Program-made: the position numbers and the translations under genes
Shown here: one piece after another, positions 24,022-41,081 of the stretch
Numbering within the stretch: the first letter of the stretch is position 1
Layout: each line of letters begins with the position of its first letter
Notes under the pieces: generated by a model
Told to the model about the DNA's origin: nothing
What the model saw: only the letters and a program-made list of their open reading frames with translations
Database searches by the model: none
IMG/VR virus record: IMGVR_UViG_3300037010_002261
Span: 1-64,000 of that record
Origin: a virus
Strand: one strand, 5' to 3'
Length of the DNA stretch: 64,000 nucleotides

Positions 24022-25194
24022 ATGGCAATCGATGCAAAGAGCGCGCCGCAGGTCTTCTGGACCAAGAACGCAGTCGGTCTGACCCTGATCGTCAACGGAG
24101 TGCCGGCGGTCGTTGACACGACCAACCCGAACTTCGACCTGATCGAGCAGGAGCTGCGCGCCGGCAAGTACGACCGAGTCCTGGCTCTCGCCAATGTCAA
24201 GCGTACGGTCGCCGAAGCGATCACCAACGCTAACGCTCGCGTGCGCTTCGTTGATGGTGAGCTCTACTGGGAAGGCCCGAAGGGCCCCGAGAAGATCGCC
24301 GGTCCACTCGTGGACCGCATCATCGCCTCTGTCCGCAACGGCAGCACGGCCGAGTCCATTCAGCCGCTGGTCCTGCTGCTGCAGAACATCAGCCGTAACA
24401 AGAAGAAGGACCTCCGCGAGGAGCTGTACCAGTTCCTGATGAGCGGCAAGATGCCCATCACGAAGGACGGTTGCTTCCTGGCCTACAAGAAGGTCGCGCG
24501 AAACTTCAAGGACATCTACACCGGCACGCTGGACAACAGCCCCGGCAAGCTGGTCGCCATGGACCCGGACAAGGTCGACGTCAACCGTCACCAGACCTGC
24601 TCCGTGGGCCTGCACTTCTGCTCGCGCTCCTACCTGAGCCAGTACCGCAGCGATGTCAGCTCACGCACCGTCATCGTCAAGGTCAACCCGCGCTTCGTGT
24701 TCGCCATCCCGACGGACTACCAGAACACCAAGGGTCGTGCCTCCGAGTACTTCGTCGTCGGCGAAGCTCTGGGCGATGCGGCCAAGGACGAGCTGTTCCT
24801 GCAGCCCTTCATCTTCGACGAGAACATGAAGGACGCCGCACCGCAAGTCAAGTTCGTGGAGCAAGGTCCGGAAGGCGCCAAGCAGAAGGCCCGCAAGAAC
24901 GTGGCGCAGCCGAAGGAGACCGTCTCCATCGGCAACCTGAAGCCTTCGCTGAAGGTCCTGGCCGAAGGCTACGGCCTGGCAAAGAACGGCAAGGCCTGGG
25001 TCCGCTTCCAGGACTCCAAGGGGCCGCTGCCGGCTGAGAAGTACACGATCGCCTTCGAGCAAGACGGCACCTACATCTCCTCGATCACTGGCAAGCCGGT
25101 GCCGAAGAGCGACCTGAAACAGCTGTCGGTCGAGACCAAGTCGGTCCGCTCTGCAATGGTCCGCGCCGTGGCCAAGCGCCGCGGCCGCGCCTAA
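24022..25194 (+). CDS. rIIB: rIIB-like protein
   Basis: 390 aa. Middle blocks LVLLLQNISRN, FLMSGKMPITKDGCFLAYKK and GLHFCSRSYLSQY are those of rIIB-type proteins. The basic C-terminus (VAKRRGRA) follows a less conserved linker. Partner of rIIA by family and position; acts in exclusion escape and lysis timing in T4. GGAGAG site before the ATG. Confidence 0.82.
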   Translation: MAIDAKSAPQVFWTKNAVGLTLIVNGVPAVVDTTNPNFDLIEQELRAGKYDRVLALANVKRTVAEAITNANARVRFVDGELYWEGPKGPEKIAGPLVDRIIASVRNGSTAESIQPLVLLLQNISRNKKKDLREELYQFLMSGKMPITKDGCFLAYKKVARNFKDIYTGTLDNSPGKLVAMDPDKVDVNRHQTCSVGLHFCSRSYLSQYRSDVSSRTVIVKVNPRFVFAIPTDYQNTKGRASEYFVVGEALGDAAKDELFLQPFIFDENMKDAAPQVKFVEQGPEGAKQKARKNVAQPKETVSIGNLKPSLKVLAEGYGLAKNGKAWVRFQDSKGPLPAEKYTIAFEQDGTYISSITGKPVPKSDLKQLSVETKSVRSAMVRAVAKRRGRA

Positions 25195-25887: not shown

Positions 25888-26517
25888 ATGCAGCATCAAG
25901 TTCTGGTACTCGACAAGTCTTGGACCCCTCACGAGTGGATCACCCGTGACGAGGCCATCATGTGCGAAGCCAAGGGCCAAGTCCTGGATCACCTGGGCGA
26001 TGACCTCATCACCTACCGTGGTGGTGACAACTCCGTGACCAAGTCCCAGTCCGAGCTGATGACGGCTTCGATCATCGTCATCAAGGGCGAGTCAACGGTC
26101 AAGCGGGTTAAGCCGTCTGCGCTGACGAACTCCTCACTGTTCCAGCGTGACCGCTACATGTGCGCCTACTGCTCTGGCTTGTTCACGAGCCATGACCTGA
26201 CTCGTGACCACATCATGCCGGTGTCGAAGGGCGGCCCGGACGTGTGGATGAACGTGGTCACGGCCTGCAAGGCCTGCAACAACCTGAAGGGTGACTTGCT
26301 GCCAGGCAAGCCGCTGCCGCATGGACAGTACAGCCCGCAAGGCACTCGGACCATGGATCCGCTCTACCTGCCGTACATCCCGTGCAAGGCCGAAGCCATG
26401 ATCATGCGCAACCGCAACATCCAGGCTGATCAGATGGCCTTCTTGTTGGGACGGATCGCCAACAAGGACCGCAGCCGCGTGTACCGTGACTTGGCTCCGA
26501 AGTTCATCACGAGCTGA
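25888..26517 (+). CDS. HNH endonuclease
   Basis: 209 aa. A zinc-binding CAYC (near residue 92), HDLTRDHIMPVSKGGPD (the H and DH of HNH), then VTACKACNNLKGD (second CxxC plus the catalytic N/H region) in the order typical of stand-alone HNH nucleases. Base composition matches its neighbours, unlike the 28187 HNH, so it is probably a resident gene (packaging or DNA-processing nuclease) and not a recent homing element. Ribosome site GAGGAG. Confidence 0.8.
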   Translation: MQHQVLVLDKSWTPHEWITRDEAIMCEAKGQVLDHLGDDLITYRGGDNSVTKSQSELMTASIIVIKGESTVKRVKPSALTNSSLFQRDRYMCAYCSGLFTSHDLTRDHIMPVSKGGPDVWMNVVTACKACNNLKGDLLPGKPLPHGQYSPQGTRTMDPLYLPYIPCKAEAMIMRNRNIQADQMAFLLGRIANKDRSRVYRDLAPKFITS

Positions 26518-27517: not shown

Positions 27518-27546
27518 TTTACAACGACTTCGACTGTAAATACAAT
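27518..27546 (+). promoter_or_regulatory. Sigma70-type promoter of the tRNA cluster
   Basis: TTTACA (27518-27523), 17 bp, TACAAT (27541-27546). No protein gene follows for 640 bp, so it should drive the tRNAs through the hairpin region at 27587-27690. Confidence 0.7.
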
Positions 27547-27732: not shown

Positions 27733-27817
27733 GGGGTCGTAGACAGTAATGGCTTCTGCCCGGCCTGTAAACCCGGTGTCCCTGACCAACAAGGTTCGAT
27801 TCCTTGCGGCCCCACCA
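27733..27817 (+). tRNA. tRNA-Tyr (GTA)
   Basis: Acceptor GGGGTCG / CGGCCCC, discriminator A and encoded CCA. Anticodon loop CTGTAAA with GTA, one mismatch at the base of the loop (C31-C39). Variable arm GTC-CCT-GAC, as in class II. T-arm CAAGG TTCGATT CCTTG. Confidence 0.85.
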
Positions 27818-27825
27818 AAAGTAAT

Positions 27826-27906
27826 GGATCAGCTGGGTGAGACGAGCCCAGGAGCCAGTTTGGGCTCCCGCGAAAGCTACGTAGGTTCGACTCCTATCCT
27901 GATCCA
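27826..27906 (+). tRNA. tRNA-like element, identity undetermined
   Basis: Acceptor GGATCAG / CTGATCC + A, T-arm GTAGG TTCGACT CCTAT (one extra C before the acceptor), a D-arm-like CTGGG...CCCAG and a small variable hairpin GC-GAAA-GC. The anticodon stem is GGAGC(C)/(G)GCTCC, giving a loop of 6 or 8 nt (AGTTTG within CAGTTTGG) in which no anticodon is in register. No CCA. Either a degenerate tRNA or a tRNA-like RNA with another use. Confidence 0.45.
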
Positions 27907-27920
27907 CCCGTAAGACCCTT

Positions 27921-28001
27921 GGAGGTATAGACGCCTATGGAGAGCGCCCGGACTGTAACCCCGGTACTTCGGTCATGAAGGTTCGATTCCTTCTACCTCC
28001 A
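27921..28001 (+). tRNA. tRNA-Tyr (GTA), second copy
   Basis: Acceptor GGAGGTA / TACCTCC, loop CTGTAAC with GTA, variable arm AC-TTCG-GT, T-arm GAAGG TTCGATT CCTTC. Same mismatch position in the anticodon stem as the first copy (A31-C39). The 3' end reads ACCC, so CCA must be added. Confidence 0.75.
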
Positions 28002-28007
28002 CCCACC

Positions 28008-28086
28008 GCCCTGGTGATGAAATCTTGGTAAACATGTCCGCCTCAGAAGCGGAATTCTGCGGGTTCGAGTCCCGCCTAGGGCACCA
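28008..28086 (+). tRNA. tRNA-Leu (CAG) with short variable loop
   Basis: Acceptor GCCCTGG / CTAGGGC, Leu-type D-arm (ATG AAATCTTGGTAAA CAT), stem TCCGC loop CTCAGAA stem GCGGA, then only ATTCT before T-arm GCGGG TTCGAGT CCCGC. CCA encoded. A normal bacterial tRNA-Leu has a long variable arm here; this one has five bases. Confidence 0.8.
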
Positions 28087-28089
28087 TAT

Positions 28090-28172
28090 GCACACGTGAT
28101 GGAATTGGTATACATCACAGCCTCAGACACTGTGGCCTTCGGGATTGGGAGTTCAAGTCTCCCCCGTGTGCA
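28090..28172 (+). tRNA. tRNA-Leu (CAG), second copy
   Basis: Acceptor GCACACG / CGTGTGC, loop CTCAGAC (CAG), a longer variable arm around GGCCTTCGGGATT, T-arm GGGAG TTCAAGT CTCCC. Mismatch C-A at the loop-closing pair. The CTAAATA box of the next gene starts two bases later. Confidence 0.78.
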
Positions 28173-28173
28173 C

Positions 28174-28180
28174 CTAAATA
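28174..28180 (+). promoter_or_regulatory. CTAAATA box
   Basis: ACCTAAATAGG, ending 6 nt before the HNH start. Confidence 0.4.
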
Positions 28181-28186
28181 GGCAGC

Positions 28187-28696
28187 ATGAAACGCGGACC
28201 TAAACCAGCTACACCAATTTCAACGGCACACATGTGTGCTTACGACTGTGGGCAAACTGCCCTATTCATTAGTGCAAGTGGAAAGTACATTTGCTGCAAG
28301 AGCGCTAATCAATGCTTAGCAAATCGAGCTAGAAGCAGTGCTACATTGAGAGCTGGCTATCAAGCAGGAAGACCTACTGCAGGGCCGATGCGCGAAGATA
28401 GAATCAAGGGCGGTTTAATGGCCGCACGTATTGCAAAAGACAAACGGCAGCACCACTTAACAGATGCACCATGGCACGAAGTTCCTAAGAGCTGCTTCCA
28501 TGAGCGCGTGTTGTTAGAGCAAGGCGGCATTTGTAAAGAATGCGGCCTTGGACAAACTTGGAATGGCAAGCCCTTAGTGTTTCAGCTTGATCACGCTAAT
28601 GGTGATAACAAGGACAATCGGCGTGAAAACTTACGCATGATCTGTCCCAACTGTCACACACAAACTCCAACGTGGGGTTTTAAGAAACGTACTTAG
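28187..28696 (+). mobile_element. HNH homing endonuclease gene in the tRNA cluster
   Basis: 169 aa CDS. N-terminal Cys pairs (CAYDCG, CCKSANQC) and a C-terminal HNH core: CKECGLGQ, FQLDHANGDNKDNRRENLR and MICPNCHTQTPTW. Codon use is visibly more AT-rich than the neighbours, as expected for a recently acquired selfish gene. It interrupts the run between two tRNA-Leu genes. Confidence 0.85.
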
Positions 28697-28700
28697 TCAC

Positions 28701-28785
28701 GCGCCCGTGGCGGAATGGGTAGACGCGGCAGACTCAAAATCTGTTGCCGCAAGGCGTGTCGGTTCGAGTCCGACCGGGCGCACCA
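28701..28785 (+). tRNA. tRNA-Leu (CAA)
   Basis: Acceptor GCGCCCG / CGGGCGC, encoded CCA, loop CTCAAAA in stem GCAGA/TCTGT, long variable arm (TGCCGCAAGGCG), T-arm TCGG TTCGAGT CCGA. Confidence 0.9.
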
Positions 28786-28789
28786 AGTG

Positions 28790-28818
28790 TTTACAAGCGG
28801 ATCGTGATGATGTACAAT
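28790..28818 (+). promoter_or_regulatory. Sigma70-type promoter
   Basis: TTTACA (28790-28795), 17 bp, TACAAT (28813-28818), followed by CAT. The further downstream words CCGATACTTAGGAG recur after the 31359 and 33351 promoters. Confidence 0.75.
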
Positions 28819-28854
28819 CATTCCATTCTGCCAACCGATACTTAGGAGCACAGC

Positions 28855-29112
28855 ATGACCTTCCCGACACAAATTGTAGTCACAAAAGACGGCGTCGAGG
28901 TGTTCAACGCGGTCGCAGGAATTCATCGCGGCCAACCGCTGACCTACCCAGGCTGCGAGGACTCTGCTGCGCGAGGCTTCATCTGCTTTGCAAGCCCACT
29001 CATTGGTTGCGCTTACCACTACACCAGTTACATCGAAGCCGCTGAGCGCATCGCCCGCATGGGTTACATTACGACCATCACGGAAGCCGGCGCCGACAAG
29101 GTGATTCAATGA
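28855..29112 (+). CDS. Hypothetical protein
   Basis: 85 aa. Contains ICFASPLIGCAYHYTSYIEA and ends with TEAGADKVIQ. No domain recognised. First gene of a four-gene ATGA/GTGA-coupled early unit. Confidence 0.6.
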   Translation: MTFPTQIVVTKDGVEVFNAVAGIHRGQPLTYPGCEDSAARGFICFASPLIGCAYHYTSYIEAAERIARMGYITTITEAGADKVIQ

Positions 29113-29399
29113 GCTGCGTTCACAACTACAAGCCGGTCGAAGGCGTCCGCGCCGTCTACCGCTGCCCAAGCTGCGGCATCTTTGCGCACAAGAGCAAGGC
29201 TCGCATCGGTCATGGCTCAAGCACCGAACTGACACCCTACAAGTGCCACCGCACAGGGTGCGATCAGCCGGTTGTCGTGCTGTACCCGGTTGTCAAGGGA
29301 CGGAAGCGCTCACAACCTAGCTGCACCTTCCACCGCAAGGACCAAGAGATCGCAGAGCTCGGGCCGCTGTCCGACGCCATCCGAAACTTCAAGCGGTGA
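29109..29399 (+). CDS. Small zinc-finger-like protein
   Basis: 96 aa. YRCPSCGIFAHK gives one CxxC; KCHRTGCDQ and a later C-x-F-H could complete metal sites. No family name. Overlaps both neighbours. Confidence 0.5.
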   Translation: MSCVHNYKPVEGVRAVYRCPSCGIFAHKSKARIGHGSSTELTPYKCHRTGCDQPVVVLYPVVKGRKRSQPSCTFHRKDQEIAELGPLSDAIRNFKR

Positions 29400-29617
29400 A
29401 GCTCGAGTACCTGACCGATAAGGCAAGGCACCTCATCTGCTTGCCCTACTCAATCGAGAACCTGCACCTGATGGCGCAGGAGCTCAACATCGCTCGCTGC
29501 TGGTTCCACAAGGACCACTACGACATTCCCAAGCGCCGCATCGCTGAGATCGAAGCGAAGTGCCGGATCGTGACCAGCCAGGACATCGTCCGGATCGCGA
29601 GGCACGGTGGCGACTAA
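29396..29617 (+). CDS. DUF4031-like protein
   Basis: 73 aa from GTG 29396 (GTGA overlap). Core CLPYSIENLHLMAQELNIAR, WFHKDHYDIPKRR and a final I-V-T match the small DUF4031 fold (start of domain shortened). Function of the family is unknown. Confidence 0.6.
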   Translation: MKLEYLTDKARHLICLPYSIENLHLMAQELNIARCWFHKDHYDIPKRRIAEIEAKCRIVTSQDIVRIARHGGD

Positions 29618-29620
29618 ATA
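29614..29620 (+). promoter_or_regulatory. CTAAATA box
   Basis: GACTAAATACC. TAA is the stop of the previous gene; the box ends 6 nt before the ATG at 29626. Confidence 0.35.
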
Positions 29621-29625
29621 CCAGC

Positions 29626-30186
29626 ATGAAGTGCTGGCATGAACTGACTATCCCGACAGCGGGCGCCCTAAGACCTGGTTGGACGCTCCCCGCTGACCCC
29701 AAGCCCTGGGCTATCTATGACCCTACGCTGACCGACATCTTCACCGATGATTGGTTACGCTGGATGACCTTGATCGGCCTGCCGGTCTGCCAGGCTATCT
29801 TGTTCTACAAGCAGCCTTGGGCTCGAAGCCCCATCGCGCACATCGACATGAGCACGCCGACTAGGCCGAAAGCATTTGCTTTTAACTGGGTCCTAGGCGG
29901 CAAGGGGAGCAAGATGCTGTGGTACACAGGGCATGAGGGCAAAGCAGGTGCCGCAAGCCTGACCATGGTCGAGACAGACTACCTCTCATGGCCTAAGACG
30001 GAGCTCACGCTTATTGACAGCCATGAGGTCAAGCAAGAGCTTACGCTCGTGCGCACGGACGTTCCGCACTCCATTGACGTGGAGGCTGAGCCTCGGTGGT
30101 GCATTAGCGTAAGGGTTCCTGACAGCGTCATTGGGGCCTCTTGGAACGAAGCTGTAGCTAAGCTGCAGCACCTCATCATCGGATGA
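29626..30186 (+). CDS. 2-oxoglutarate/Fe(II) oxygenase-like protein
   Basis: 186 aa from ATG 29626; the frame opens earlier, but the CTAAATA box and CCAGC context favour this start. Seen: AHIDM (H-x-D), FNWVLGG, a distal RTDVPHSID with the second His and RWCISVR with the 2OG-binding Arg position. This H-x-D...H...R order is that of jelly-roll oxygenases common in phages. Substrate unknown; base or protein hydroxylation is possible. The last 6 nt are also the start of tRNA-Ser. Confidence 0.5.
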   Translation: MKCWHELTIPTAGALRPGWTLPADPKPWAIYDPTLTDIFTDDWLRWMTLIGLPVCQAILFYKQPWARSPIAHIDMSTPTRPKAFAFNWVLGGKGSKMLWYTGHEGKAGAASLTMVETDYLSWPKTELTLIDSHEVKQELTLVRTDVPHSIDVEAEPRWCISVRVPDSVIGASWNEAVAKLQHLIIG

Positions 30187-30271
30187 TAAACCGGGCGGGC
30201 GTCCGGGGCCGCCTTGAAAGCGGTACGGTTCGGCTAGTACCCGGGCTGGGGTTCGAGTCCTCTGTCATCCG
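30181..30271 (+). tRNA. tRNA-Ser (TGA)
   Basis: Acceptor GGATGAT / GTCATCC with discriminator G, anticodon stem GCCGC loop CTTGAAA stem GCGGT, long variable arm, T-arm GGGG TTCGAGT CCTC. Its first six bases include the stop codon of the 29626 gene. Confidence 0.85.
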
Positions 30272-30321
30272 CCGCTTTATATCACCTTGGCCGAAAAGGT
30301 AATATAATGCAAACACATCAC

Positions 30322-30404
30322 GCCCTCGTGATAAATGCAAATTGGTACAGCTACTAGCTTGAGATGCTAGATTTTTGCGGGTTCGAGTCCCGCCGAGGGC
30401 ACCA
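30322..30404 (+). tRNA. tRNA-Leu (GAG) with short variable loop
   Basis: Acceptor GCCCTCG / CGAGGGC + ACCA, stem CTAGC loop TTGAGAT stem GCTAG, then only ATTTTT before T-arm GCGGG TTCGAGT CCCGC. The D-arm has about six extra bases before GCAAATTGGTAC. TATAAT lies just upstream (30303-30308). Confidence 0.72.
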
Positions 30405-30550
30405 AGGTGACATGCTGAAAATTGGTAGACAGCGTCGCGGTCAAGTCAAGACGGAGAGGCCTTATCACCCTCGCATGCCCATGGCAGGAACCGATGGCAT
30501 AAGCTAGCATGACAGACTATGCATCGTAGGTTCGAGTCCTACTGTCACCT
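30405..30550 (+). tRNA. Expanded tRNA-Leu-like gene, about 146 nt
   Basis: Perfect 8-bp ends AGGTGACA / TGTCACCT, a Leu-type D-arm (GCTG AAAATTGGTAGA CAGC) and a canonical T-arm GTAGG TTCGAGT CCTAC. Between them are about 93 nt in place of about 45. A loop GTCAAGT with CAA lies at the right place, but its stem GTCGCG/CAAGAC has two mismatches. The extra RNA can form GATGgCAT/ATGCATC and TGCC-CAT-GGCA hairpins. Could be a Leu tRNA with a giant variable insertion, or a decayed gene. Confidence 0.45.
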
Positions 30551-30553
30551 TAC

Positions 30554-30642
30554 GGAAGATGAACCGGACAGGGTCCGGACCTGCTTCGAAAGCAGTGGGA
30601 GTCACAGAGATGTGGCTTGGGGTTCAAGTCCTCCGTCTTCCA
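30554..30642 (+). tRNA. tRNA-Ser (CGA)
   Basis: Acceptor GGAAGAT / GTCTTCC, loop TTCGAAA in stem CCTGC/GCAGT, long variable arm, T-arm TGGGG TTCAAGT CCTCC-like. Adjacent to the next tRNA by two bases. Confidence 0.85.
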
Positions 30643-30644
30643 CC

Positions 30645-30730
30645 GCCCCGTTGGCGAAATTGGTAGACGCAGCAGGCTTAAACTCTGCCGCCTCGGAAGA
30701 GGCGTACCGGTTCGAGTCCGGTACGGGACA
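30645..30730 (+). tRNA. tRNA-Leu (TAA)
   Basis: Acceptor GCCCCGT / ACGGGAC (one C-A mismatch), loop CTTAAAC in stem GCAGG/TCTGC, variable arm CCGCCTCGGAAGAGGCG, T-arm TACCGG TTCGAGT CCGGTA. Confidence 0.87.
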
Positions 30731-30733
30731 CAT

Positions 30734-30828
30734 GGATAGTTAACCGGTTAGGTGACCGGACCTGCTTGGAAAGCAGTGGGATTCTTCGGTAACGAGGGAT
30801 TGGGTTTCGAGTACTCAACTATCCGCCA
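30734..30828 (+). tRNA. tRNA-Ser (GGA)
   Basis: Acceptor GGATAGT / ACTATCC, discriminator G, encoded CCA. Loop TTGGAAA in stem CCTGC/GCAGT, long variable arm, T-arm TGGGT TTCGAGT ACTCA. The last A of CCA is the A of the next gene's ATG. Confidence 0.87.
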
Positions 30829-31226
30829 TGATAGCACACAACGACATTACCGGCGATGCCCTCAAGTCCAAGTCAACTACCGACTCCTACCGTAGCGGGT
30901 GGGACCGAATCTTTGGCAAGAAGGCTGAAGAACAAGAGCCAGCTGCAGAAGCACTTGGCAAGGAAAAGCGGTACATTGTCCGTGTTGGGCTTGACGCAAA
31001 GTACTCGCCCGAAACCGCCGCAAGGCTAATCAATGCAGAGTACGGCACGGTGCTTCGCGCGTCTGGTCAAAGCTTGCTTATCACGCTGCGTGACGCTCCC
31101 GACACGCTCAACCACCTGAAGGAGGCTACAGGTTGCGCTGTGTCCGAGGAGGTGCTGTACAAACGGCCTGACGCACGCTTACATGTACGGCTCTACGACG
31201 ACCCGCTCGAAGATCATCACGACTGA
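30828..31226 (+). CDS. Conserved phage protein with YRxGWDRIFG motif
   Basis: 132 aa. N-terminal NDITGDALKSKSTTDSYRSG then WDRIFGKK resembles a motif I recall from many tailed-phage proteins of unknown role. The ATG overlaps the CCA end of tRNA-Ser, so the mRNA start must be inside or before a tRNA; no separate ribosome site is visible. Confidence 0.6.
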   Translation: MIAHNDITGDALKSKSTTDSYRSGWDRIFGKKAEEQEPAAEALGKEKRYIVRVGLDAKYSPETAARLINAEYGTVLRASGQSLLITLRDAPDTLNHLKEATGCAVSEEVLYKRPDARLHVRLYDDPLEDHHD

Positions 31227-31243
31227 GTAAAGCGCGAATTCAT

Positions 31244-31339
31244 GGAAGGTTAACCAGGTAGGTGCCTGGACCGGATTGCTAATCCGAGGGTCTCGCTCTC
31301 AACAAGCGGGATGGGTTTCGAGTACTCAGCCTTCCGCCA
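31244..31339 (+). tRNA. tRNA-Ser (GCT)
   Basis: Acceptor GGAAGGT / GCCTTCC, discriminator G and encoded CCA, loop TTGCTAA in stem CGGA/TCCG, long variable arm, T-arm TGGGT TTCGAGT ACTCA as in the GGA isoacceptor. Confidence 0.87.
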
Positions 31340-31358
31340 TCTTTTTGTCTCTCGAGTG

Positions 31359-31387
31359 TTTACACGGAGGCCGTACTGGTGTACAAT
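31359..31387 (+). promoter_or_regulatory. Sigma70-type promoter
   Basis: TTTACA (31359-31364), 17 bp, TACAAT (31382-31387), followed by CATCATATCGGCAACAGTGA, nearly the same leader as at 33381. Confidence 0.75.
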
Positions 31388-31423
31388 CATCATATCGGCA
31401 ACAGTGATACTTGGAGATGCAAG

Positions 31424-31768
31424 ATGCTCAAATCGCTCAATGATTCCAACCTTTGCGCCCTGCATGCAGGCGCCACGAAGGTCTGGTACTACAAGCCCGC
31501 GGTCGCCCGCTACATCACCTTCGGCGAGGTCAAGGTTGACCCGAAGAACCTGGAGGCAACGCACGTGCTGTTGGGCTCCATCGCCGAAACCCACCTCGAA
31601 GCTATCTTCGGCTCTCTCCAAGGTGAATGCTGGTCCCCGAACGGCGAAGCCCGCGAGCTAATCACGAGCAAGGAGCTGAACCACACCTCGATGTCCGTCG
31701 GTGACGTGATCGAGGTCAACGGCCGCGCCTACGAGTGCAAGCCGTTTGGCTTTGCGGAGCTGGTATGA
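31424..31768 (+). CDS. YodL-like hypothetical protein
   Basis: 114 aa from ATG 31424, which follows CTTGGAG and lies behind the promoter leader; an upstream in-frame ATG at 31379 overlaps the promoter. The C-terminus MSVGDVIEVNGRAYECKPFG + FAELV matches the small YodL-like motif (S-V-G-D-V...FGF). Function unknown. Confidence 0.55.
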   Translation: MLKSLNDSNLCALHAGATKVWYYKPAVARYITFGEVKVDPKNLEATHVLLGSIAETHLEAIFGSLQGECWSPNGEARELITSKELNHTSMSVGDVIEVNGRAYECKPFGFAELV

Positions 31769-31998
31769 CCTACTCATCCATCTGCTGTGCCTCTAACCGG
31801 GGCGGCTGCGGCCACACCTTCACGCCGGCGCGCGAGTTCCAAAAAGCTTGCTCCCGTGACTGTGCTTCGCGCATGATCGGCCAAGTCACTGAAGAGCTGC
31901 GGCTGGCTCGCCGGCAGTACTACATCGAGCGACAAGCAACGCTCTCAGATCTGGTCCCTAAGCCGAAGCGCAAGCGCGCTCGTCGGCGCAGGAAGTAG
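31765..31998 (+). CDS. Small zinc-finger protein with basic tail
   Basis: 77 aa from ATG 31765 (ATGA overlap). CCASNRGGCGHTFTP ... CSRDCAS gives a four-Cys site; the tail PKPKRKRARRRRK is strongly basic, suggesting nucleic-acid binding. Confidence 0.5.
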   Translation: MTYSSICCASNRGGCGHTFTPAREFQKACSRDCASRMIGQVTEELRLARRQYYIERQATLSDLVPKPKRKRARRRRK

Positions 31999-31999
31999 C

Positions 32000-32542
32000 A
32001 TGAGCAATTCGTCTGACATGCGACGAGCTCTCCTCATCATGCAGCAAGCCTGCATCGATGATGGCCATGAGCTGACCTTCAAACGAGTCAAAGCGCGGAC
32101 AGTCAAGGTCACAGTGGTCAACGCCGGCGACACCTTGACGATGACCTGGGAGGCCTACAAGACAGGCTTCCTTAGCATCGAGTGCGGTGACCAAAGCCGC
32201 ATGTATCCAGTCGGGTACGATCCTGTTCCCACAGCGGCTGCTGAGCTCAGGGCGCTAGACTGGAGCTTCAGGGTCATGCGCGCTCCGACTTTGGAGCTAA
32301 AGTCTTTCGTGAGCGAGCGTAAGGCCAATGCGGCTCCGACCAAGCATGTCATGAACAAGCATGAGCGCAAGCTCATGACGCAGCTGCGGCAAAGTCAGGC
32401 AAGACCGAAGCCGAGGTGCGGCGGGACCCGACCGCCCGCCGGCAGCTGGCCGAGGCTCGCAAGCTTGGCAACAAGCCGGCGGGCGACCACGTGTTCGACG
32501 GTCGTAACTGGCTCACGCCTCACCAAGCGGCCAGCCGGGTAG
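32000..32542 (+). CDS. Hypothetical protein, probably frame-disrupted near 32390
   Basis: 180 codons as read, but the tail after about residue 131 is Arg/Pro/Thr-rich nonsense typical of a wrong frame. A -1 shift at CGG-CAA-AG (32387-32394) joins HERKLMTQLRQ to KSGKTEAEVRRDPTARRQLA, giving a coherent protein of about 207 aa ending at 32622. So this and the next entry are probably one gene, either interrupted or frameshifted. Confidence 0.45.
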   Translation: MSNSSDMRRALLIMQQACIDDGHELTFKRVKARTVKVTVVNAGDTLTMTWEAYKTGFLSIECGDQSRMYPVGYDPVPTAAAELRALDWSFRVMRAPTLELKSFVSERKANAAPTKHVMNKHERKLMTQLRQSQARPKPRCGGTRPPAGSWPRLASLATSRRATTCSTVVTGSRLTKRPAG

Positions 32543-32622
32543 TCGAGCGCGCTCGCCTGAAAGGCGTCACCAAGCCGATCTACGCTGATGAGCTTGCCAA
32601 GGCTCTGAAGAGGGCAAAATGA
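32416..32622 (+). CDS. Downstream part of the 32000 gene, or a separate GTG-start gene
   Basis: 68 aa if started at GTG 32416: RRDPTARRQLAEARKLGNKP then a C-terminal VTKPIYADELAKALKRAK. The same frame is open from 32365, before any start codon, which favours a fused or frameshifted origin. No ribosome site. Confidence 0.45.
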   Translation: MRRDPTARRQLAEARKLGNKPAGDHVFDGRNWLTPHQAASRVVERARLKGVTKPIYADELAKALKRAK

Positions 32623-32951
32623 ACAACACCCACCGCATCACGTACGTTGTTCACGCTCTCGTAGACCTGGTTCAGCTCAAGCTGGAATACTCCATGGACC
32701 AGCGCGAGGAGGCCGAGGCTTTAGCTGGCTCCTTCAAACGTGTCGGCTTCCAGGTCCAACTCGGCCGTGTCATGTCACCTACAGCGGCAACACCGTGCGG
32801 GAGGAGCTGGACATTCAGAGCACTCCCGCGCTCACGCTCACCCAAACAAGGAGCTCATGATGATCTACCAAGCCTGCGGCGCTATCACCGCCTTCTCCCT
32901 CCTTGCCATGGGCCTGATCACCTTCGATGCTCTCGACGGACCTGTGTATGA
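32619..32951 (+). CDS. Hypothetical protein, probably frame-disrupted near 32771
   Basis: ATGA-coupled to the previous gene. The first 50 residues (NNTHRITYVVHALVDLVQLK...) look real; the tail to 32951 is out-of-frame composition. A -1 shift at GTC/CAT (32769-32773) gives HVTYSGNTVREELDIQSTPA + LTLTQTRSS with a TGA at 32858-32860 that overlaps the next ATG, the spacing typical of this operon. So the true product is probably about 80 aa. Confidence 0.45.
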   Translation: MNNTHRITYVVHALVDLVQLKLEYSMDQREEAEALAGSFKRVGFQVQLGRVMSPTAATPCGRSWTFRALPRSRSPKQGAHDDLPSLRRYHRLLPPCHGPDHLRCSRRTCV

Positions 32952-33072
32952 CCGACTCAACACGGCTCTCAAGCGCCTGAACGGGCGCCATGCAGGCATC
33001 GCCCTGCTCTTGGGCTGCGTCGCCCTGCTGAGCTTTTTGATCGCTTTGCTTGCTAAAGGAGCAACACCATGA
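32857..33072 (+). CDS. Two-helix membrane protein
   Basis: 71 aa from ATG 32857 (AAGGAGC 7 nt upstream). Hydrophobic segments near residues 5-23 and 48-66 separated by a basic loop (TALKRLNGRH). Overlaps the next gene by ATGA. Confidence 0.6.
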   Translation: MMIYQACGAITAFSLLAMGLITFDALDGPVYDRLNTALKRLNGRHAGIALLLGCVALLSFLIALLAKGATP

Positions 33073-33344
33073 GCCAAGACTTTGACGAGATCAACCCAGC
33101 ACCCGAGGTGTCCTACATCCCGCGCTGGTCCTTCACCTTGAGCAAGAAGGACGCGCTGCTGGTCCTCAAGGCCCTGGGTGGCCGCTTGACCGATGTCGAG
33201 GTCAAGGAGGCCAAGGAGCTTGGCGACCGCTTGACCGAGCTGCGGCAAGCCACCGGTCAGGACTACCAGAACTCCTTGGACCGTGCGGCACGCGCCGCGG
33301 CTGAAGGCTTCACCGGCAAGCGGAACGTAGCTCCAAAGAGCTGA
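33069..33344 (+). CDS. Hypothetical protein
   Basis: 91 aa. DVEVKEAKELGDRLTELRQA is a helical stretch; ends GFTGKRNVAPKS. No domain recognised. Last gene of the unit before a new promoter. Confidence 0.6.
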   Translation: MSQDFDEINPAPEVSYIPRWSFTLSKKDALLVLKALGGRLTDVEVKEAKELGDRLTELRQATGQDYQNSLDRAARAAAEGFTGKRNVAPKS

Positions 33345-33350
33345 AAGCCG

Positions 33351-33380
33351 TTTACATCACGGTCCGAATGGGTGTACAAT
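33351..33380 (+). promoter_or_regulatory. Sigma70-type promoter
   Basis: TTTACA (33351-33356), 18 bp, TACAAT (33375-33380). The following leader matches that of the 31359 promoter (CAT-x-x-TATCG-x-CAACAGTGATACTT). Confidence 0.75.
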
Positions 33381-33416
33381 CATCTTATCGACAACAGTGA
33401 TACTTAAGGAGACGGC

Positions 33417-33683
33417 ATGAGCCTCCAATTTGCATTTCTCGAGATCGCCTACGACAATGGCTGCGTCAATAGGTCCATGCCCGAGAGCAAGGTCCTGGAC
33501 AAGATGTGGGGCGTTGTACGCCTCAAGTTTGACTCGAAGGTCATCGCTGACGTCGACAAGGAGCTCTCTGCCATGCCTCGGCACGCTTTGGAGGAGCTTT
33601 GCTCTGGCGAGGAGTCCGAGCAACCGAGCGTGTCGCAAAACGCGCGCGACATCCTGGAACACGCTTTCAACCACATGGTGTGA
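33417..33683 (+). CDS. Hypothetical protein
   Basis: 88 aa: EIAYDNGCVNRSMPESKVLD, RLKFDSKVIADVDKEL and a helical end. Early promoter upstream, TTAAGGAGA ribosome site. Unrecognised. Confidence 0.6.
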   Translation: MSLQFAFLEIAYDNGCVNRSMPESKVLDKMWGVVRLKFDSKVIADVDKELSAMPRHALEELCSGEESEQPSVSQNARDILEHAFNHMV

Positions 33684-33685
33684 TC

Positions 33686-33802
33686 ATGAGCCTCCTGTCC
33701 CTCTACCTCTGCCTCAGCTTCGTGATGTTCGGCTTCCTCATGGTGATCTGGAACCGCAGCGACCCGTTCAACCTCATCCTCAAGGTAGCCTTCGGGCGTT
33801 GA
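33686..33802 (+). CDS. Membrane microprotein
   Basis: 38 aa with one transmembrane helix (LLSLYLCLSFVMFGFLMVIW). Followed by an overlapping TTG-start frame of 19 codons (33799-33858, LTGLAAFVVLTHFGYIIKA) that is again hydrophobic; the pair may be two parts of one membrane protein or two micro-genes. Confidence 0.45.
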   Translation: MSLLSLYLCLSFVMFGFLMVIWNRSDPFNLILKVAFGR

Positions 33803-33868
33803 CCGGGCTCGCCGCCTTCGTCGTCCTCACCCACTTCGGCTACATCATCAAAGCCTGACAACTTTTTG

Positions 33869-33897
33869 TTTACAACTTGCTTGGCAGGTGTTACTAT
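33869..33897 (+). promoter_or_regulatory. Sigma70-type promoter
   Basis: TTTACA (33869-33874), 17 bp, TACTAT (33892-33897), 29 nt before the 33926 gene with AGGAAAGGA as ribosome site. Confidence 0.65.
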
Positions 33898-33925
33898 CTA
33901 GACCACAATAGGAAAGGAAATCCCG

Positions 33926-36007
33926 ATGACCCACGTGCTGAACTTCAACGTCTTCAAGAAGGCGATCCAGAAGCGCTTCGCGGAGATGACGGCCAACAAC
34001 GCCGCTCTGTTCCGCGTCAGCATCCCGAAGGATGAGACCGGTGCCAAGAGCGACCTGCTCTGGAACACCTACTTGGGCGCCTTCCCGGAAGGCACCAACC
34101 CGATGTACCGTGAGCGCACGGAGCACGACTGTACCTGCTGCCGCCACTTCATCCGTGACGTTGGCGACGTCGTGACGATCAACGCCGACGGCTCGCTCAC
34201 GTCCATCTGGGACATCGACATCGCCGCCAAGGAGCCGGCTTACCAAACTGTTGCCAACGCGCTGTCCGCGACCGTCAAGGCTCACGCCATCGGCGACGTG
34301 TTCCTGCACTACCTGGACAAGGCCGGCACCGACCGCAGCTTCGAGCAGCTGGTCAACGGCGGTCAGCAAGCCTGGGATCACTTCTTCGTCAACATCCCGC
34401 GCGCTTACGTGGTGGGCAAGGACCATGTCGCGACCAAGCTGAGCGAAGACCGCTCGGCCCGTGACTCCCTGCACCGCAGCCTGACCGACCTGAGCATCGA
34501 GAACATCGACGCGGTGCTGGAGCTGATCACGCAGGGCTCGATCTACCGCGGTGACCAGTTCAAGGGCGCCGTCACCTCCTTCCGTGAGCTGAAGGCCGCT
34601 TTCGACAAGCTGTCGGCTGACCGACAAGCGCTCTTCGCCTGGACCAAGTTCAAGGCAGCAGGCGCACTGTGCGGCTTCCGCACTTCGGTCATCGGCACGT
34701 TGGTCGAGGACTTGGCCATGAAGGAGCTGGATGACGCCGTCAAGATCTACGAGTCCAAGACCGCCCCGCAGAACTACAAGCGTCCGACGGCGCTGGTTAC
34801 CAAGGGCATGATCGAGAAGGCCAAGGGCGAGCTGCAGAAGCTGGGCTTGGTCTCGGCCCTGGAACGCCGCTTCGCAGTCCTGACGGACATCACGGTCAAC
34901 AACGTGTTGTTCGCCAACCGCGACGCCAAGGCGACCATGACCGGCGACGTGTTCGATGACCTGGTGGGTGACGCCAAGGTCTCGACCAGGTCCTTCGACA
35001 AGATCGAGGAGGTGGGCATCGAGAAGTTCCTGAAGGACATCCTGCCGACGGCCAAGTCGATCGAGCTGCTGTTGGAGAACAAGCACACCAACCGCCTGGT
35101 CAGCCTGATCGCTCCAACCGACCCGACGGCTGGCAAGCTGTTTGCTTGGGACAACTCCTTCAGCTGGTCCTACACCGGCGACGTGACGGACTCGATCAAG
35201 GAACGTGTTAAGAGCGCCGGCGGCCAAGTGGTCGGCGAGCTGTGCTGCCGCCTGGCCTGGGACTACACCGATGACCTGGATTTCCACATGGTCGAGCCGG
35301 GCGGCTCCGAGATCTACTACGGCAGCTACCGGCTGAAGGGTGGCCGTAGCCTGTCTCCGTGCGGTGGCGAGCTGGACCTGGACGCCAACGGCGTTGACGG
35401 CATGAAGAACGAGCCGTGCGAGAACATCTACTACGCCAACCGCAACCGCATGAAAGAAGGCGTCTACGAGCTGTTCATCAACAACTTCGTCAAGCGGTCG
35501 ACGGACGGCAAGGGCTTCGGCGTCGACATCGAGTTCGACGGCGTGACCACGACGATCTACTACGATCGCGCGATCCCGTCTCGGTCGAACCTGACCGTGG
35601 CGAAGATCAAGTACTCGAAGAAGGACGGCTTCACGATCATCGAGTCGCTGCCGAGCACGAGCACGACGAAGGATGTCTGGGGCCTGAAGACCCAGACCTT
35701 CCAGCAAGTCAACGTCGTGATGCTGTCACCGAACCACTGGGATGACCAGAAGGGCGCCGGCAACAAGCACTACTTCTTCATGCTGCAAGGCTGTGCCAAT
35801 GACGGCACCGCCCGTGGCTTCTACAACGAGTTCCTGACCCCGGAGCTGAACAAGCACCGCAAGGTCCTGGAGATGGTCGGCTCCAAGCTGAAGGTCGCCA
35901 AGGCGTCCGAACAGCTGTCGGGCCTGGGCTTCTCGTCCACGGTACGCGACACCGTGGTCGTGCGTGTCAAGGGCGCTCTCAACCGCGTCATCCGAGTCGC
36001 ATTCTGA
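33926..36007 (+). CDS. Large conserved phage protein with DUF2135-like C-terminal domain
   Basis: 693 aa. Early Cys/His pair (HDCTCCRHF, about residue 70). The region from about residue 440, CRLAWDYTDDLDFHMVEPGG then SEIYYG, GGELDLDANGVDG and GVYELFINNF, resembles the YfaP/DUF2135 beta-sandwich that accompanies VWA proteins. The 250-residue middle is helical. Family role unknown. Coding composition is very regular and its promoter is strong, so it is likely abundant early in infection. It pairs with the 36040 gene. Confidence 0.65.
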   Translation: MTHVLNFNVFKKAIQKRFAEMTANNAALFRVSIPKDETGAKSDLLWNTYLGAFPEGTNPMYRERTEHDCTCCRHFIRDVGDVVTINADGSLTSIWDIDIAAKEPAYQTVANALSATVKAHAIGDVFLHYLDKAGTDRSFEQLVNGGQQAWDHFFVNIPRAYVVGKDHVATKLSEDRSARDSLHRSLTDLSIENIDAVLELITQGSIYRGDQFKGAVTSFRELKAAFDKLSADRQALFAWTKFKAAGALCGFRTSVIGTLVEDLAMKELDDAVKIYESKTAPQNYKRPTALVTKGMIEKAKGELQKLGLVSALERRFAVLTDITVNNVLFANRDAKATMTGDVFDDLVGDAKVSTRSFDKIEEVGIEKFLKDILPTAKSIELLLENKHTNRLVSLIAPTDPTAGKLFAWDNSFSWSYTGDVTDSIKERVKSAGGQVVGELCCRLAWDYTDDLDFHMVEPGGSEIYYGSYRLKGGRSLSPCGGELDLDANGVDGMKNEPCENIYYANRNRMKEGVYELFINNFVKRSTDGKGFGVDIEFDGVTTTIYYDRAIPSRSNLTVAKIKYSKKDGFTIIESLPSTSTTKDVWGLKTQTFQQVNVVMLSPNHWDDQKGAGNKHYFFMLQGCANDGTARGFYNEFLTPELNKHRKVLEMVGSKLKVAKASEQLSGLGFSSTVRDTVVVRVKGALNRVIRVAF

Positions 36008-36039
36008 TCCACCCGTGCAACACTGAAAGGAAGCACATC

Positions 36040-36462
36040 ATGACAACCAACATCGACAACCTGCTGCTGCAGGCCTCCCGCCAGAAGTGGCGCTTCGACA
36101 CGCCGAAGGGCGCGCTGGCCATCGAGGACCTGTGGGACCTGCCGCTGACCTCGGGCACCGGCAAGGCCAACCTGGACGACATCGCCAAGTCTCTGTTCCG
36201 CAAGGCCAAGGCCGACAATGACGAGCCGACCAGCTTCGTCACGGCCAGCGCCAAGCCGGCTGACGTCGTCACGCCGCTGAAGCTCGAGGTCGTCAAGTAC
36301 GTCATCGACGTCATCTCGACCGAACGCACGGCCGCCGCCAACGCCGCCGCTCGCGCCGCTCAGCGCCAGCTGGTGATGAAGGCCATCGACGACAAGAAGG
36401 CCAACGCCATCAACGACATGTCCGTCGAGGACCTGCAGGCCCTGCTGGAATCGCTGAAGTAA
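36040..36462 (+). CDS. Conserved phage protein next to the DUF2135-like gene
   Basis: 140 aa. IDNLLLQASRQKWRFDTPKG, ALAIEDLWDLPL, LEVVKYVIDVI and a helical Ala-rich end; I recall the same neighbour pair from other large phages. AAAGGAAG ribosome site, 32 nt after the upstream gene. Function unknown. Confidence 0.6.
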   Translation: MTTNIDNLLLQASRQKWRFDTPKGALAIEDLWDLPLTSGTGKANLDDIAKSLFRKAKADNDEPTSFVTASAKPADVVTPLKLEVVKYVIDVISTERTAAANAAARAAQRQLVMKAIDDKKANAINDMSVEDLQALLESLK

Positions 36463-36482
36463 GCTTCGGCCTGGATGATGTG

Positions 36483-36510
36483 TTTACAAGGCTTGGCTTT
36501 GTGATACAAT
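36483..36510 (+). promoter_or_regulatory. Sigma70-type promoter
   Basis: TTTACA (36483-36488), 16 bp, TACAAT (36505-36510), then CATCCTACCG as in its relatives. Confidence 0.72.
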
Positions 36511-36542
36511 CATCCTACCGAATCCCAAACAGCGAGACTGCC

Positions 36543-36842
36543 ATGCAATACCCAAGCAACCTGTTCAACTTCAGCAAGCACTTGGGTATGCTGGTAACAC
36601 GTGCTGGCGTCCTGCAGCACGCCGCTCGAGGCCTCCCGATCTTCGAGCCTGTCAATGACCGCACCGCCGATGAAGGCATGCACGTCATCTCGACAGGCTC
36701 GGGCGAGGAGGCCTCGTTCTATGTCAGCCATGTTGACAAGAAGCATGACGGCACCGTCAAGAGCTGGCTGCTGAAGCCCACGCTCGACACCGTGATCCGC
36801 CTGCCACAGCTCAGCAAGGCCAAGATTCTGGTGGTCGCATGA
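36543..36842 (+). CDS. Hypothetical protein
   Basis: 99 aa from ATG 36543; an earlier in-frame ATG lies before the promoter -10 and is excluded. LFNFSKHLGMLVTRAGVLQH, then ISTGSGEEASFYVSHVDKK. Unrecognised. Confidence 0.58.
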   Translation: MQYPSNLFNFSKHLGMLVTRAGVLQHAARGLPIFEPVNDRTADEGMHVISTGSGEEASFYVSHVDKKHDGTVKSWLLKPTLDTVIRLPQLSKAKILVVA

Positions 36843-37063
36843 GCTCGTTCAAAGAGGCGTTGTTGGTTCTCCCTGAAGCGGACCTGGTCCTGATGGCCGA
36901 GTCCCTGCTCGGGAACGAGCTGTTCAGCATCGTCGTTGACGCTGAGACCAACCCGCTGGTGCTGAAGCACCAGAGCCACACAGCGCTCGACGAGCTCAGC
37001 AAGCGGCCGTACGTTCAAGCATTACCTGAAGCCAGCAAGGTTAAAGATCCTCGAGCTGGTTGA
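36839..37063 (+). CDS. Hypothetical protein
   Basis: 74 aa, ATGA-coupled to the previous gene. SFKEALLVLPEADLVLMAES, then TNPLVLKHQSHTALDELSKR. Unrecognised. The 180 bp that follow hold no gene I can support, only a TATACT word near 37170. Confidence 0.55.
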   Translation: MSSFKEALLVLPEADLVLMAESLLGNELFSIVVDAETNPLVLKHQSHTALDELSKRPYVQALPEASKVKDPRAG

Positions 37064-37242
37064 GCAAGCACGTCATCCCATCGACGCAACCGATGAGTAA
37101 CCAGCCGATGGAGGCTATCATGTAGCGCAAGCTATGCATATGATCACACAATAGAGAACTCATCTTTTATACTGTCCAGGAAAGATGGTTGGGCTTACGT
37201 ATATGGCGAAAGCCTGGGCTTGACACAGGACTTTCCAAAAGC

Positions 37243-37329
37243 GCGCCCGTGGTGAAATTGGTAGACACACCAGGTTTAGGTCCTGACGCCAGCAGTGGCG
37301 TGCCGGTTCGAGTCCGGCCGGGCGCACCA
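37243..37329 (+). tRNA. tRNA-Leu (TAG)
   Basis: Acceptor GCGCCCG / CGGGCGC as in tRNA-Leu(CAA), encoded CCA, loop TTTAGGT in stem CAGG/CCTG, long variable arm (GCCAGCAGTGGC), T-arm GCCGG TTCGAGT CCGGC. The final A of CCA starts the next ATG. Confidence 0.88.
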
Positions 37330-40047: not shown

Positions 40048-40319
40048 GCAAGAACAAGCTCCTGGAGCTTCAACAAACGTTCATCGACCGACTTGCGCTT
40101 GACTATGACGTGGTCCTGCGGGACAAGAAGCTGCACGTGATGCGGGGCACACGGATCATGATCCACGCTGTCTTCATGGAGACCGTGGATCAGGTGATGC
40201 TGGCGTTCTTCACCGGCAACCCGATCTTCTTCGTGTGGTCAGAGGATGGGCCTGCTTACATCGCCAAGATCGGCGTTGAGCGTTTGCACAAAGAGCTCGA
40301 CAAGAATCCGTGGAAGTAA
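40044..40319 (+). CDS. Hypothetical protein
   Basis: 91 aa, ATGA-coupled. KLLELQQTFIDRLALDYDVV then a beta-rich half. Similar in opening pattern to the 41189 protein (LLLAQQELVDKLDDSYDVRI), so the two are likely paralogues. Confidence 0.55.
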   Translation: MSKNKLLELQQTFIDRLALDYDVVLRDKKLHVMRGTRIMIHAVFMETVDQVMLAFFTGNPIFFVWSEDGPAYIAKIGVERLHKELDKNPWK

Positions 40320-40322
40320 ATA
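40316..40322 (+). promoter_or_regulatory. GTAAATA box before the tmRNA
   Basis: Late-type box overlapping the stop of the 40044 gene and lying directly upstream of the tmRNA acceptor piece. Confidence 0.4.
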
Positions 40323-40324
40323 AG

Positions 40325-40586
40325 AGCTGAACAGCGTAAACTGAAGGTAAGAAAAGCGGCGACACCCGGGTTCAATTCCCGGCACCTCCACCCAAGCACA
40401 TATCATGTGTTCTTCGGTGGGGGTGACTTGGCGATCGACCGACGCGTAGTATGACCATAGGCGCTCGATAGGTGACTGCCGTAAGCAGCGCAAAGCATTA
40501 CAAACGCAAACGACTCTGTCTACGCGATGGCGGCCTAATAAGCCTTCGGAGTTCGTAGCCGTACTTGGCAACAGAAACGGCTACAC
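40325..40586 (+). ncRNA. ssrA: Circularly permuted (two-piece type) tmRNA
   Basis: The tRNA-like 3' end comes first: T-arm CCGGG TTCAATT CCCGG (40366-40382), acceptor CACCTCC (40383-40389), A, CC. A short spacer with hairpin CACAT/ATGTG follows, then the mature 5' end GGGGGTG (40419-40425), which pairs perfectly with CACCTCC and forms a G3-U70 wobble, the alanine identity pair. Next comes TGGCGATCGACCGACG, like the tmRNA 5' consensus. The tag frame 40506-40538 reads ANDSVYAMAA then TAATAA. A stem CTGC-CGTAA-GCAG (PK1-like) precedes the tag, and GTAGCCGT/ACGGCTAC (40555-40584) closes it. Exact ends and helix P2 are not resolved. Known: rescues stalled ribosomes with SmpB;permuted genes give two RNA pieces. 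Confidence 0.9.
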
Positions 40587-41081
40587 CCCTTCAGGATATA
40601 CCCACGTCCTCTTACCGTCAACGACGGCAATTTTCCTGCCTGTAATTGTCTTAGACAATTTTTCAGCTGACTTGCGTCCATTTTCAGCTGCATTGGGATT
40701 CTTTACCCCTTTGTTCCAGGCAGGTTTCCCCGTGCCTTTCCCCTTTCGGCCTTCGCTGATAGCTTTACAATAGTCTTCAGACATTGTCTTGCCTGCATTC
40801 CATGGCAATTGACCTTTCTTGCGACCGACTTTCTGATTGTAGTACTTGGTATTGTACTCACAGTCCTTAATTCTGGCTAGTAGATCCCATTCTAGCTTTC
40901 GAATCTCTTCAATGTCGCTGATCTTAAGGATTCGACGCTTGAAGTCTTGAGGTCGATAGTGATATTCACCATTGAACCAACGCGACGATGAGGTGTAGCT
41001 GTCTGTCGGTACTCCTTCATGAGAGCCGATGTAGTACATGTTACGCAACGAGTCGCGCCAGAGATAGATGAAGCCTTGCAT
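40581..41081 (-). mobile_element. GIY-YIG homing endonuclease gene
   Basis: 166 aa CDS. MQGFIYLWRD...NMYYIGSHEG is the GIY-YIG motif, with the R and E of the core in FKRRILKISDIEEIRKLEWD. The C-terminal half has NUMOD3-like repeats (LPWNAGKTMSE, PAWNKGVKNPNA). AT-rich compared with neighbours. Its stop lies inside the closing hairpin of the tmRNA, so the element sits against that gene. Confidence 0.88.

Follow-up and report, generated by a model that had tools for sequence, protein, structure and literature searches.

A jumbo-phage tRNA array confined to leucine, serine and tyrosine anticodons, with serine and leucine tRNAs of unusual build

Why should a phage carry transfer RNA (tRNA) genes for leucine, serine and tyrosine, and none for other amino acids? 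The question is raised by a tRNA cluster in the window analysed here, which comprises bases 1-64000 of the 90,151-base IMG/VR virus record IMGVR_UViG_3300037010_002261. It has long been asked why phages carry tRNAs, and arrays of mixed composition yield many answers at once; a single complete structural class, alone in its array, isolates one selective cause. Twelve tRNAs can be assigned in the cluster: six for leucine (CAG twice, CAA, GAG, TAA, TAG), four for serine (TGA, CGA, GGA, GCT) and two for tyrosine (both GTA). By anticodon all 12 belong to the class II families, those with a long variable arm, and all ten class II anticodons are present. A previous reading of the stretch (hereafter, the sequence-only reading) had listed the same 12 genes, and its statement that every assignable tRNA of the window is for Leu, Ser or Tyr is confirmed.

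Eight of the genes (both Tyr GTA, both Leu CAG, Leu CAA, TAA and TAG, and Ser GCT) are reported by ARAGORN, along with a permuted transfer-messenger RNA (tmRNA). The remaining four, Ser TGA, Ser CGA, Leu GAG and Ser GGA, fall below default cut-offs and were recovered by low-threshold Rfam searches, by running RF00005 on the record, and by a T-arm/acceptor scan; each has a 7-nt anticodon loop with U33. The terminal CCA is encoded by 7 of the 12 tRNAs. Two extra tRNA-like elements also retain a paired acceptor and T arm (Table 1). The Tyr-like one, in tandem with the two Tyr genes, has a 5/5 T arm and a perfect acceptor, is closest to a Tyr tRNA of a related contig (G003, 54%), and is probably not decoding. 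The Leu-like one carries a duplicated GTCAA in its anticodon region and about 60-70 additional nucleotides.

The terminase large subunit is nearest to those of jumbo myophages, with XacN1 on top at 39.7%, and the window is assigned from its sequence to a jumbo myophage. A protein search, together with two scans for exact patterns at right-hand ends, retrieved three near-identical contigs that extend the window, bringing the total assembled to 265,310 bp (the 90,151-bp record plus 175,159 bp of continuation), in an assembly that is not closed; a search for a left-end extension and a final one at the right end returned nothing. Since the phages closest by terminase span 286-385 kb, we estimate that most of the genome, not all, is in hand. 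The search for class I tRNAs elsewhere in the genome, proposed with the sequence-only reading, came back empty: ARAGORN and the T-arm/acceptor scan detected no tRNA outside the set in the 265,310 bp of the unclosed assembly, and RF00005, with matches accepted to E = 10, gave no further tRNA in the two right-hand records. A few weak additional matches of the T-arm/acceptor scan were judged by reading to be without tRNA form. Looking for closer relatives by terminase alone recovered just the near-identical contig; the terminase relatives at 53-58% are short contigs (L058, L059, L060), and in the one that was scanned, L058 (30 kb), RF00005 matched nothing.

For comparison we used the tRNA-bearing stretches of 14 viral contigs and positions 1-70 kb of XacN1; G009, a near duplicate of G003, was excluded from the count and from the table of variable loops. 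In these 15 relatives ARAGORN reports 256 tRNAs, 59 of which are for Leu, Ser or Tyr. Every relative carries a mixed set (class-II-only, 0/15), and the best of them has 8 of the ten class II anticodons, versus ten of ten here. The hypergeometric probability of the restriction is 5e-6 for the 8/8 genes found by ARAGORN and 9e-9 for 12/12, values that assume independent tRNAs and were computed once the pattern had been noticed. An artefact of ARAGORN was considered as the source of the restriction and rejected: the program overlooked four class II genes in the window and also, in the relatives, two Ser tRNAs (the latter change the base rate little), and its bias thus works against class II rather than towards it.

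Codon usage, taken from 342 predicted genes, probably does not by itself account for the set. TTA represents 4% of the leucine codons and CTG 35%, and the claim that the set covers every codon for Leu and Ser is borne out irrespective of codon use. The presence of all isoacceptors whatever their use speaks against simple codon compensation, which we reject as sole cause. Leucine is the commonest amino acid (9.0%), with alanine at 8.3%, glycine at 7.5% and valine at 7.2%; the last three are common residues with no phage tRNA. Leucine, serine and tyrosine together make up 19.5% of codons, a share that we judge ordinary.

The shape of the tRNAs is less uniform than their anticodons. Leu CAG number 1 and Leu GAG have variable loops of 5 and 6 nt, while in the remaining ten tRNAs the range is 12-24 nt. 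The description of the set as the long-variable-arm families therefore holds for 12/12 by anticodon and for 10/12 by shape (loop >10 nt); with two of six Leu tRNAs having 5-6-nt loops, the restriction is one of amino-acid family, not strictly of architecture. A survey of relatives (L138-L157, L024, L029-L033) found variable loops of 7 nt or less in 18 of 31 parsed Leu tRNAs, in none of 17 Ser tRNAs, and in none of 8 parsed Tyr tRNAs. In the other direction, variable arms of 14-23 nt occur in 18 of 179 parsed tRNAs with class I anticodons (Cys, Lys, Asn, Thr, Pro, Trp, Glu, Met, Gly, Ile); parsing failed for one Leu tRNA, two Tyr tRNAs and 15 further tRNAs of the relatives. The occurrence of armless Leu tRNAs together with armed class I tRNAs indicates that architecture and anticodon are partly uncoupled, both ways, in these jumbo phages. 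No report of such uncoupling was found in the literature searched. Leucyl-tRNA synthetase is expected to tolerate the loss of the variable arm, and tyrosyl-tRNA synthetase requires the arm. The arm is also required by seryl-tRNA synthetase (PMC7609411). The remodelling fits these limits: Leu tRNAs may drop the arm, and Ser and Tyr tRNAs retain it because their synthetases need it.

The serine tRNAs are rebuilt in a different part of the molecule. In each of the four, the D-stem has 6 bp and closes a loop of 3-4 nt. This is the form of selenocysteine tRNA (tRNA-Sec), whose D arm has a 6-bp stem and a 4-nt loop, as against a 4-bp stem and an 8-11-nt loop in tRNA-Ser (PMC7609411); among the 17 Ser tRNAs of the relatives, two (G016, G022) have a D-stem of 6 bp or more. 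Ser TGA and Ser CGA have acceptor and T stems of 8 and 4 bp (8/4; mismatch at 49-65, pair at 8-65) and no U8, and Ser GGA and Ser GCT are compatible with either 8/4 or 7/5. When the four sequences are aligned, the structure is paired in 96.7% of cells, as compared to 81.1% after shuffling; at the eighth acceptor pair the two bases covary (U-A, A-U, G-C), and two pairs of the D-stem show changes on both sides. This covariation among four related sequences supports the predicted 8/4 structure, short of proof. The bacterial 8/4 tRNAs of the allo-tRNA or tRNA-Sec-like type have the 8-bp acceptor and 4-bp T stem predicted for the phage tRNAs and share with them the long variable arm and the seryl-type body, and tRNA-Sec shares in addition the 6-bp D-stem and the 4-nt loop; the allo-tRNAs differ in that their anticodons are mostly not those of serine (PMC7609411). 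The four window anticodons are all serine anticodons, neither the non-serine ones usual in allo-tRNA nor the UCA usual in tRNA-Sec.

A model built from the four window Ser tRNAs (R1) matches kin in four relatives (G016, G020, G025, G022) at 43-65 bits. The same model brought to light two Ser tRNAs of 8/4 type missed by ARAGORN, at L140:11956-12042(+) with 56.2 bits and L146:9991-10080(-) with 44.3 bits. The nearest kin of each window Ser tRNA is another window Ser tRNA, except for Ser CGA (G016 CGA, 68%), in a tree with low support at several nodes. As the window Ser tRNAs are mostly one another's nearest kin, the set probably arose within phages by duplication and anticodon change, and diversified there rather than being copied from one host. 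One strict pattern was used to look in bacteria for the origin of the Ser D arm, a weak test given that it fits 2 of the 4 window Ser tRNAs; it returned 4 genome contigs, none of which ARAGORN recognised as a tRNA.

Table 1. Features of the tRNA locus in window coordinates, followed by the contigs that continue the record
Feature	Position or contig	Strand	Details
rIIA	21350-23950	+	PHROGs
rIIB	24022-25194	+	PHROGs
Promoter-like TTTACA-17-TACAAT upstream of cluster	27518-27546	+	same sequence at 28790-28818 and 31359-31387
tRNA-Tyr(GTA)	27733-27817	+	13-nt variable arm; CCA encoded; ARAGORN; RF00005 31.3 bits
Tyr-lineage tRNA-like element	27826-27906	+	altered 6-8-nt anticodon loop; GCGAAAGC variable arm
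tRNA-Tyr(GTA)	27920-28005	+	12-nt variable arm; ARAGORN
tRNA-Leu(CAG) number 1	28008-28086	+	5-nt variable loop ATTCT, variable arm lost; ARAGORN; RF00005 59.5 bits
tRNA-Leu(CAG) number 2	28089-28174	+	13-nt variable arm; ARAGORN
HNH (homing-type) endonuclease gene within tRNA cluster	28187-28696	+	phrog_10822 78.9 bits; PADLOC homing endonuclease 38.6 bits
tRNA-Leu(CAA)	28701-28785	+	13-nt variable arm; ARAGORN; RF00005 60 bits; 81% to XacN1 Leu CAA
tRNA-Ser(TGA)	30181-30271	+	8/4 stems; 6-bp D-stem, 4-nt loop; 22-nt variable arm; RF01852 (tRNA-Sec) 43.3 bits, sub-threshold
tRNA-Leu(GAG)	30322-30404	+	6-nt variable loop, variable arm lost; CCA encoded; scan; RF00005 25.1 bits
Leu-like tRNA relic or intron-like variant	30405-30550	+	146 nt; intact acceptor and T arm, abnormal middle
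tRNA-Ser(CGA)	30554-30642	+	8/4; 6-bp D-stem; 21-nt variable arm; A73; RF01852 (tRNA-Sec) 37.1 bits, sub-threshold
tRNA-Leu(TAA)	30645-30731	+	17-nt variable arm; ARAGORN
tRNA-Ser(GGA)	30734-30828	+	8/4 or 7/5; 6-bp D-stem; 23-nt variable arm; CCA encoded; T-arm/acceptor scan
tRNA-Ser(GCT)	31244-31339	+	8/4 or 7/5; 6-bp D-stem; 24-nt variable arm; CCA encoded; ARAGORN
tRNA-Leu(TAG)	37243-37329	+	15-nt variable arm; ARAGORN; RF00005 51.7 bits
Permuted (two-piece) tmRNA, same locus	40300-40629	+	ARAGORN; RF04321 96.7 bits
Continuation contig	3300036715_001578		identical across 12,000 compared bases and at tail
Continuation contig	3300035180_001545		99.99% across 35,182 bases
Continuation contig	3300035181_001618		identical across 2,496 bases

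The window locus, with rIIAB and the tmRNA nearby, is probably the mixed tRNA locus of XacN1. In that phage the tRNAs lie in terminal repeats near rIIAB, with a tmRNA-like match among them (ARAGORN), and 56 tRNA genes are placed in the terminal repeats (PMC5852040). XacN1 is a related jumbo phage that has in common with this one rIIAB and a tmRNA-like match near the tRNAs, an RNA ligase and a CCA enzyme; it differs in having tRNAs for all 20 amino acids, whereas only Leu, Ser and Tyr are represented here (PMC5852040). The window looks like the same locus in which only class II has remained, or in which class II has been built up. The continuation contigs encode a T4 Rnl1-type RNA ligase domain (87.1 bits, G012:992-1723(-)) and a CCA-adding-type polymerase domain (67.4 bits, G010:102970-103332(-)), and the window encodes a protein of the Acb1 anti-CBASS family (48887-49465(-), PF23474, 63.2 bits); the phage thus carries other genes for tRNA upkeep and against host defences. 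Promoter-like sites number 5, versus 2.0 +/- 1.5 expected.

Other features of the surroundings are recorded as side observations. The tmRNA encodes the tag ANDSVYAMAA, and its match to RF01850 (86.7 bits) suggests a tmRNA of betaproteobacterial type. Its end is overlapped on the opposite strand by a homing endonuclease gene (40581-41081; phrog_314, 41 bits; GIY-YIG-like by eye). PrkA kinase, DUF444 and SpoVR-like genes, a bacterial stress trio, are grouped at 12994-14925, 16662-17972 and 18548-20125, and a 5-hydroxymethyldeoxyuridine (5-hmdU) DNA kinase helical domain at 44475-45602(-) (31.7 bits) hints at hypermodified phage DNA.

These results can be interpreted as a dedicated, remodelled supply of class II tRNAs that would make up for their depletion by a host factor; this is the interpretation that we tentatively favour, with a probability of about 0.4. 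A phage that needs all the Leu, Ser and Tyr tRNAs and no others most plausibly meets a loss of class II tRNAs in its host. According to this hypothesis, the host class II tRNAs would be lost during infection; the likeliest agent would be an immune nuclease of bacteria that recognises class II tRNAs from the side of their variable arm, its effector being directed at the variable arm or the elbow. The phage tRNAs would survive through dosage or altered shape, and the complete Leu/Ser/Tyr isoacceptor set would sustain phage translation under class II depletion. In a bolder form, which we consider doubtful, an undescribed bacterial effector would read class II tRNAs by elbow and variable arm, jumbo phages would counter it with rebuilt tRNAs (8/4 tRNA-Sec-like Ser and armless Leu), and this phage would hold the full resistant kit alone.

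The nearest precedent is the PtuAB effector of Septu and retron-Eco7, which cuts the variable loop of tRNA-Tyr, and against which an additional phage tRNA-Tyr rescues infection; the tRNA-Tyr of T5 is resistant because of its own variable loop, and T6 amplifies its tRNA-Tyr gene by way of a homing endonuclease (PMC13096335, PMC11555353). The T5/SP15 and T6 systems share with the present array a phage tRNA of a class II family and a homing endonuclease beside the tRNAs, and in them both copy number and variable-loop form matter against an effector that cuts the variable loop (PMC11555353, PMC13096335). They differ in that other tRNAs also lie in the region and the defence hits tRNA-Tyr only (PMC11555353, PMC13096335), whereas the array here is wholly class II, with Leu and Ser complete. 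The homing-type genes in and near the window cluster are only a parallel to the amplification in T6. In human cells SLFN14 singles out type II tRNAs, and SLFN11/12/14 offer a further likeness, a nuclease that selects tRNAs with long variable arms, with partial rescue of viral expression by added type II tRNA; these are vertebrate proteins (PMC13245857), and neither the present data nor our searches show a bacterial equivalent directed at the whole of class II.

The sequence-only reading had proposed a host factor acting against class II tRNAs, possibly Schlafen-like. The general claim retains the exact family set, the codon-independent coverage and the PtuAB precedent in its favour; since the known PtuAB targets tRNA-Tyr only, a class-II-wide bacterial nuclease is something that we infer from these observations. 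The Schlafen-like form finds nothing in its support here, and paper searches (preprints not covered) found no report of a bacterial Schlafen that cuts class II tRNAs. As for a Schlafen carried by the phage, no SLFN AlbA_2 match was found in 4/4 phage records, a result that says nothing about the host. A phage-borne PtuB was likewise rejected: a 209-aa HNH protein (25888-26517) matches PtuB models over the HNH core alone, at best with 27 bits (PADLOC), and PHROGs HNH families with up to 62 bits.

Several observations weigh against the hypothesis of a class II supply. The changes of shape are also seen in relatives with mixed sets and are hence not specific to this phage. The class-II-only set is known from one lineage, the near-identical extra contigs not being independent, and from an unclosed genome of which a part may be missing. 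PtuAB, as known, acts on tRNA-Tyr and not on Leu or Ser tRNAs, and XacN1 has its RNA ligase and CCA genes alongside a mixed tRNA set.

The restriction could also be a matter of contingency: an ancestral mixed jumbo-phage array would have shrunk, and the Leu, Ser and Tyr lineages that were left would have duplicated in the phage with no selection on class. The probable identity of the locus with the mixed one of XacN1, the diversification of the Ser tRNAs within phages, and the homing endonucleases in and near the cluster, which move such segments, all agree with such a history; without selection, a history in which every class I tRNA disappeared and the full ten class II anticodons were kept or built up is improbable (p about 1e-8 for independent tRNAs), and the stems have been preserved by compensatory change, and we regard this account as unlikely on balance, if not negligibly so. 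A somewhat smaller chance is given to general translation supply, in which the demand for Leu, Ser and Tyr exceeds what the host provides, by codon or amino-acid compensation, and no defence is involved. XacN1 tRNAs match codons used more by the phage than by its host (PMC5852040), and leucine is the commonest residue here; against this, every isoacceptor is present even where its codon is as rare as TTA, the combined share of the three amino acids is ordinary, and Ala, Gly and Val have no tRNA despite their abundance.

Two more accounts appear less likely still, both to the same degree. One is that the phage, or a general shut-off of the host, destroys canonical class II tRNAs, for which the remodelled phage set substitutes. 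The phage Ser tRNAs and two of its Leu tRNAs deviate from the canonical class II shape, so that a nuclease reading shape could spare them, and HNH and DNA/RNA non-specific nuclease domains occur among the phage proteins; no phage tRNA nuclease was identified by the AlbA_2 and PtuB comparisons described above, most of the 342 predicted genes not having been examined. The other is that class I tRNAs reside in the unseen part of the genome and the restriction is only positional. The 265 kb in hand are unclosed and fall short of the 286-385 kb of the nearest terminase phages, some relatives (G008, G021, G025) have more than one tRNA cluster, and yet nothing else is present in the 265 kb, and the entire locus that matches the XacN1 tRNA locus, the one whose 56 genes lie in the terminal repeats (PMC5852040), is in hand.

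Overall, the array is a variant of the tRNA arrays known from phages, in which the serine and leucine tRNAs have unusual bodies. It points to a definite question, namely what in the host removes tRNAs of this class. The putative 8/4 Ser tRNAs with a tRNA-Sec-type D arm, together with the armless Leu tRNAs, show what bacterial translation may tolerate, and the rebuilt tRNAs would be, if the hypothesis of a class II supply is true, ready-made nuclease-resistant tRNAs.

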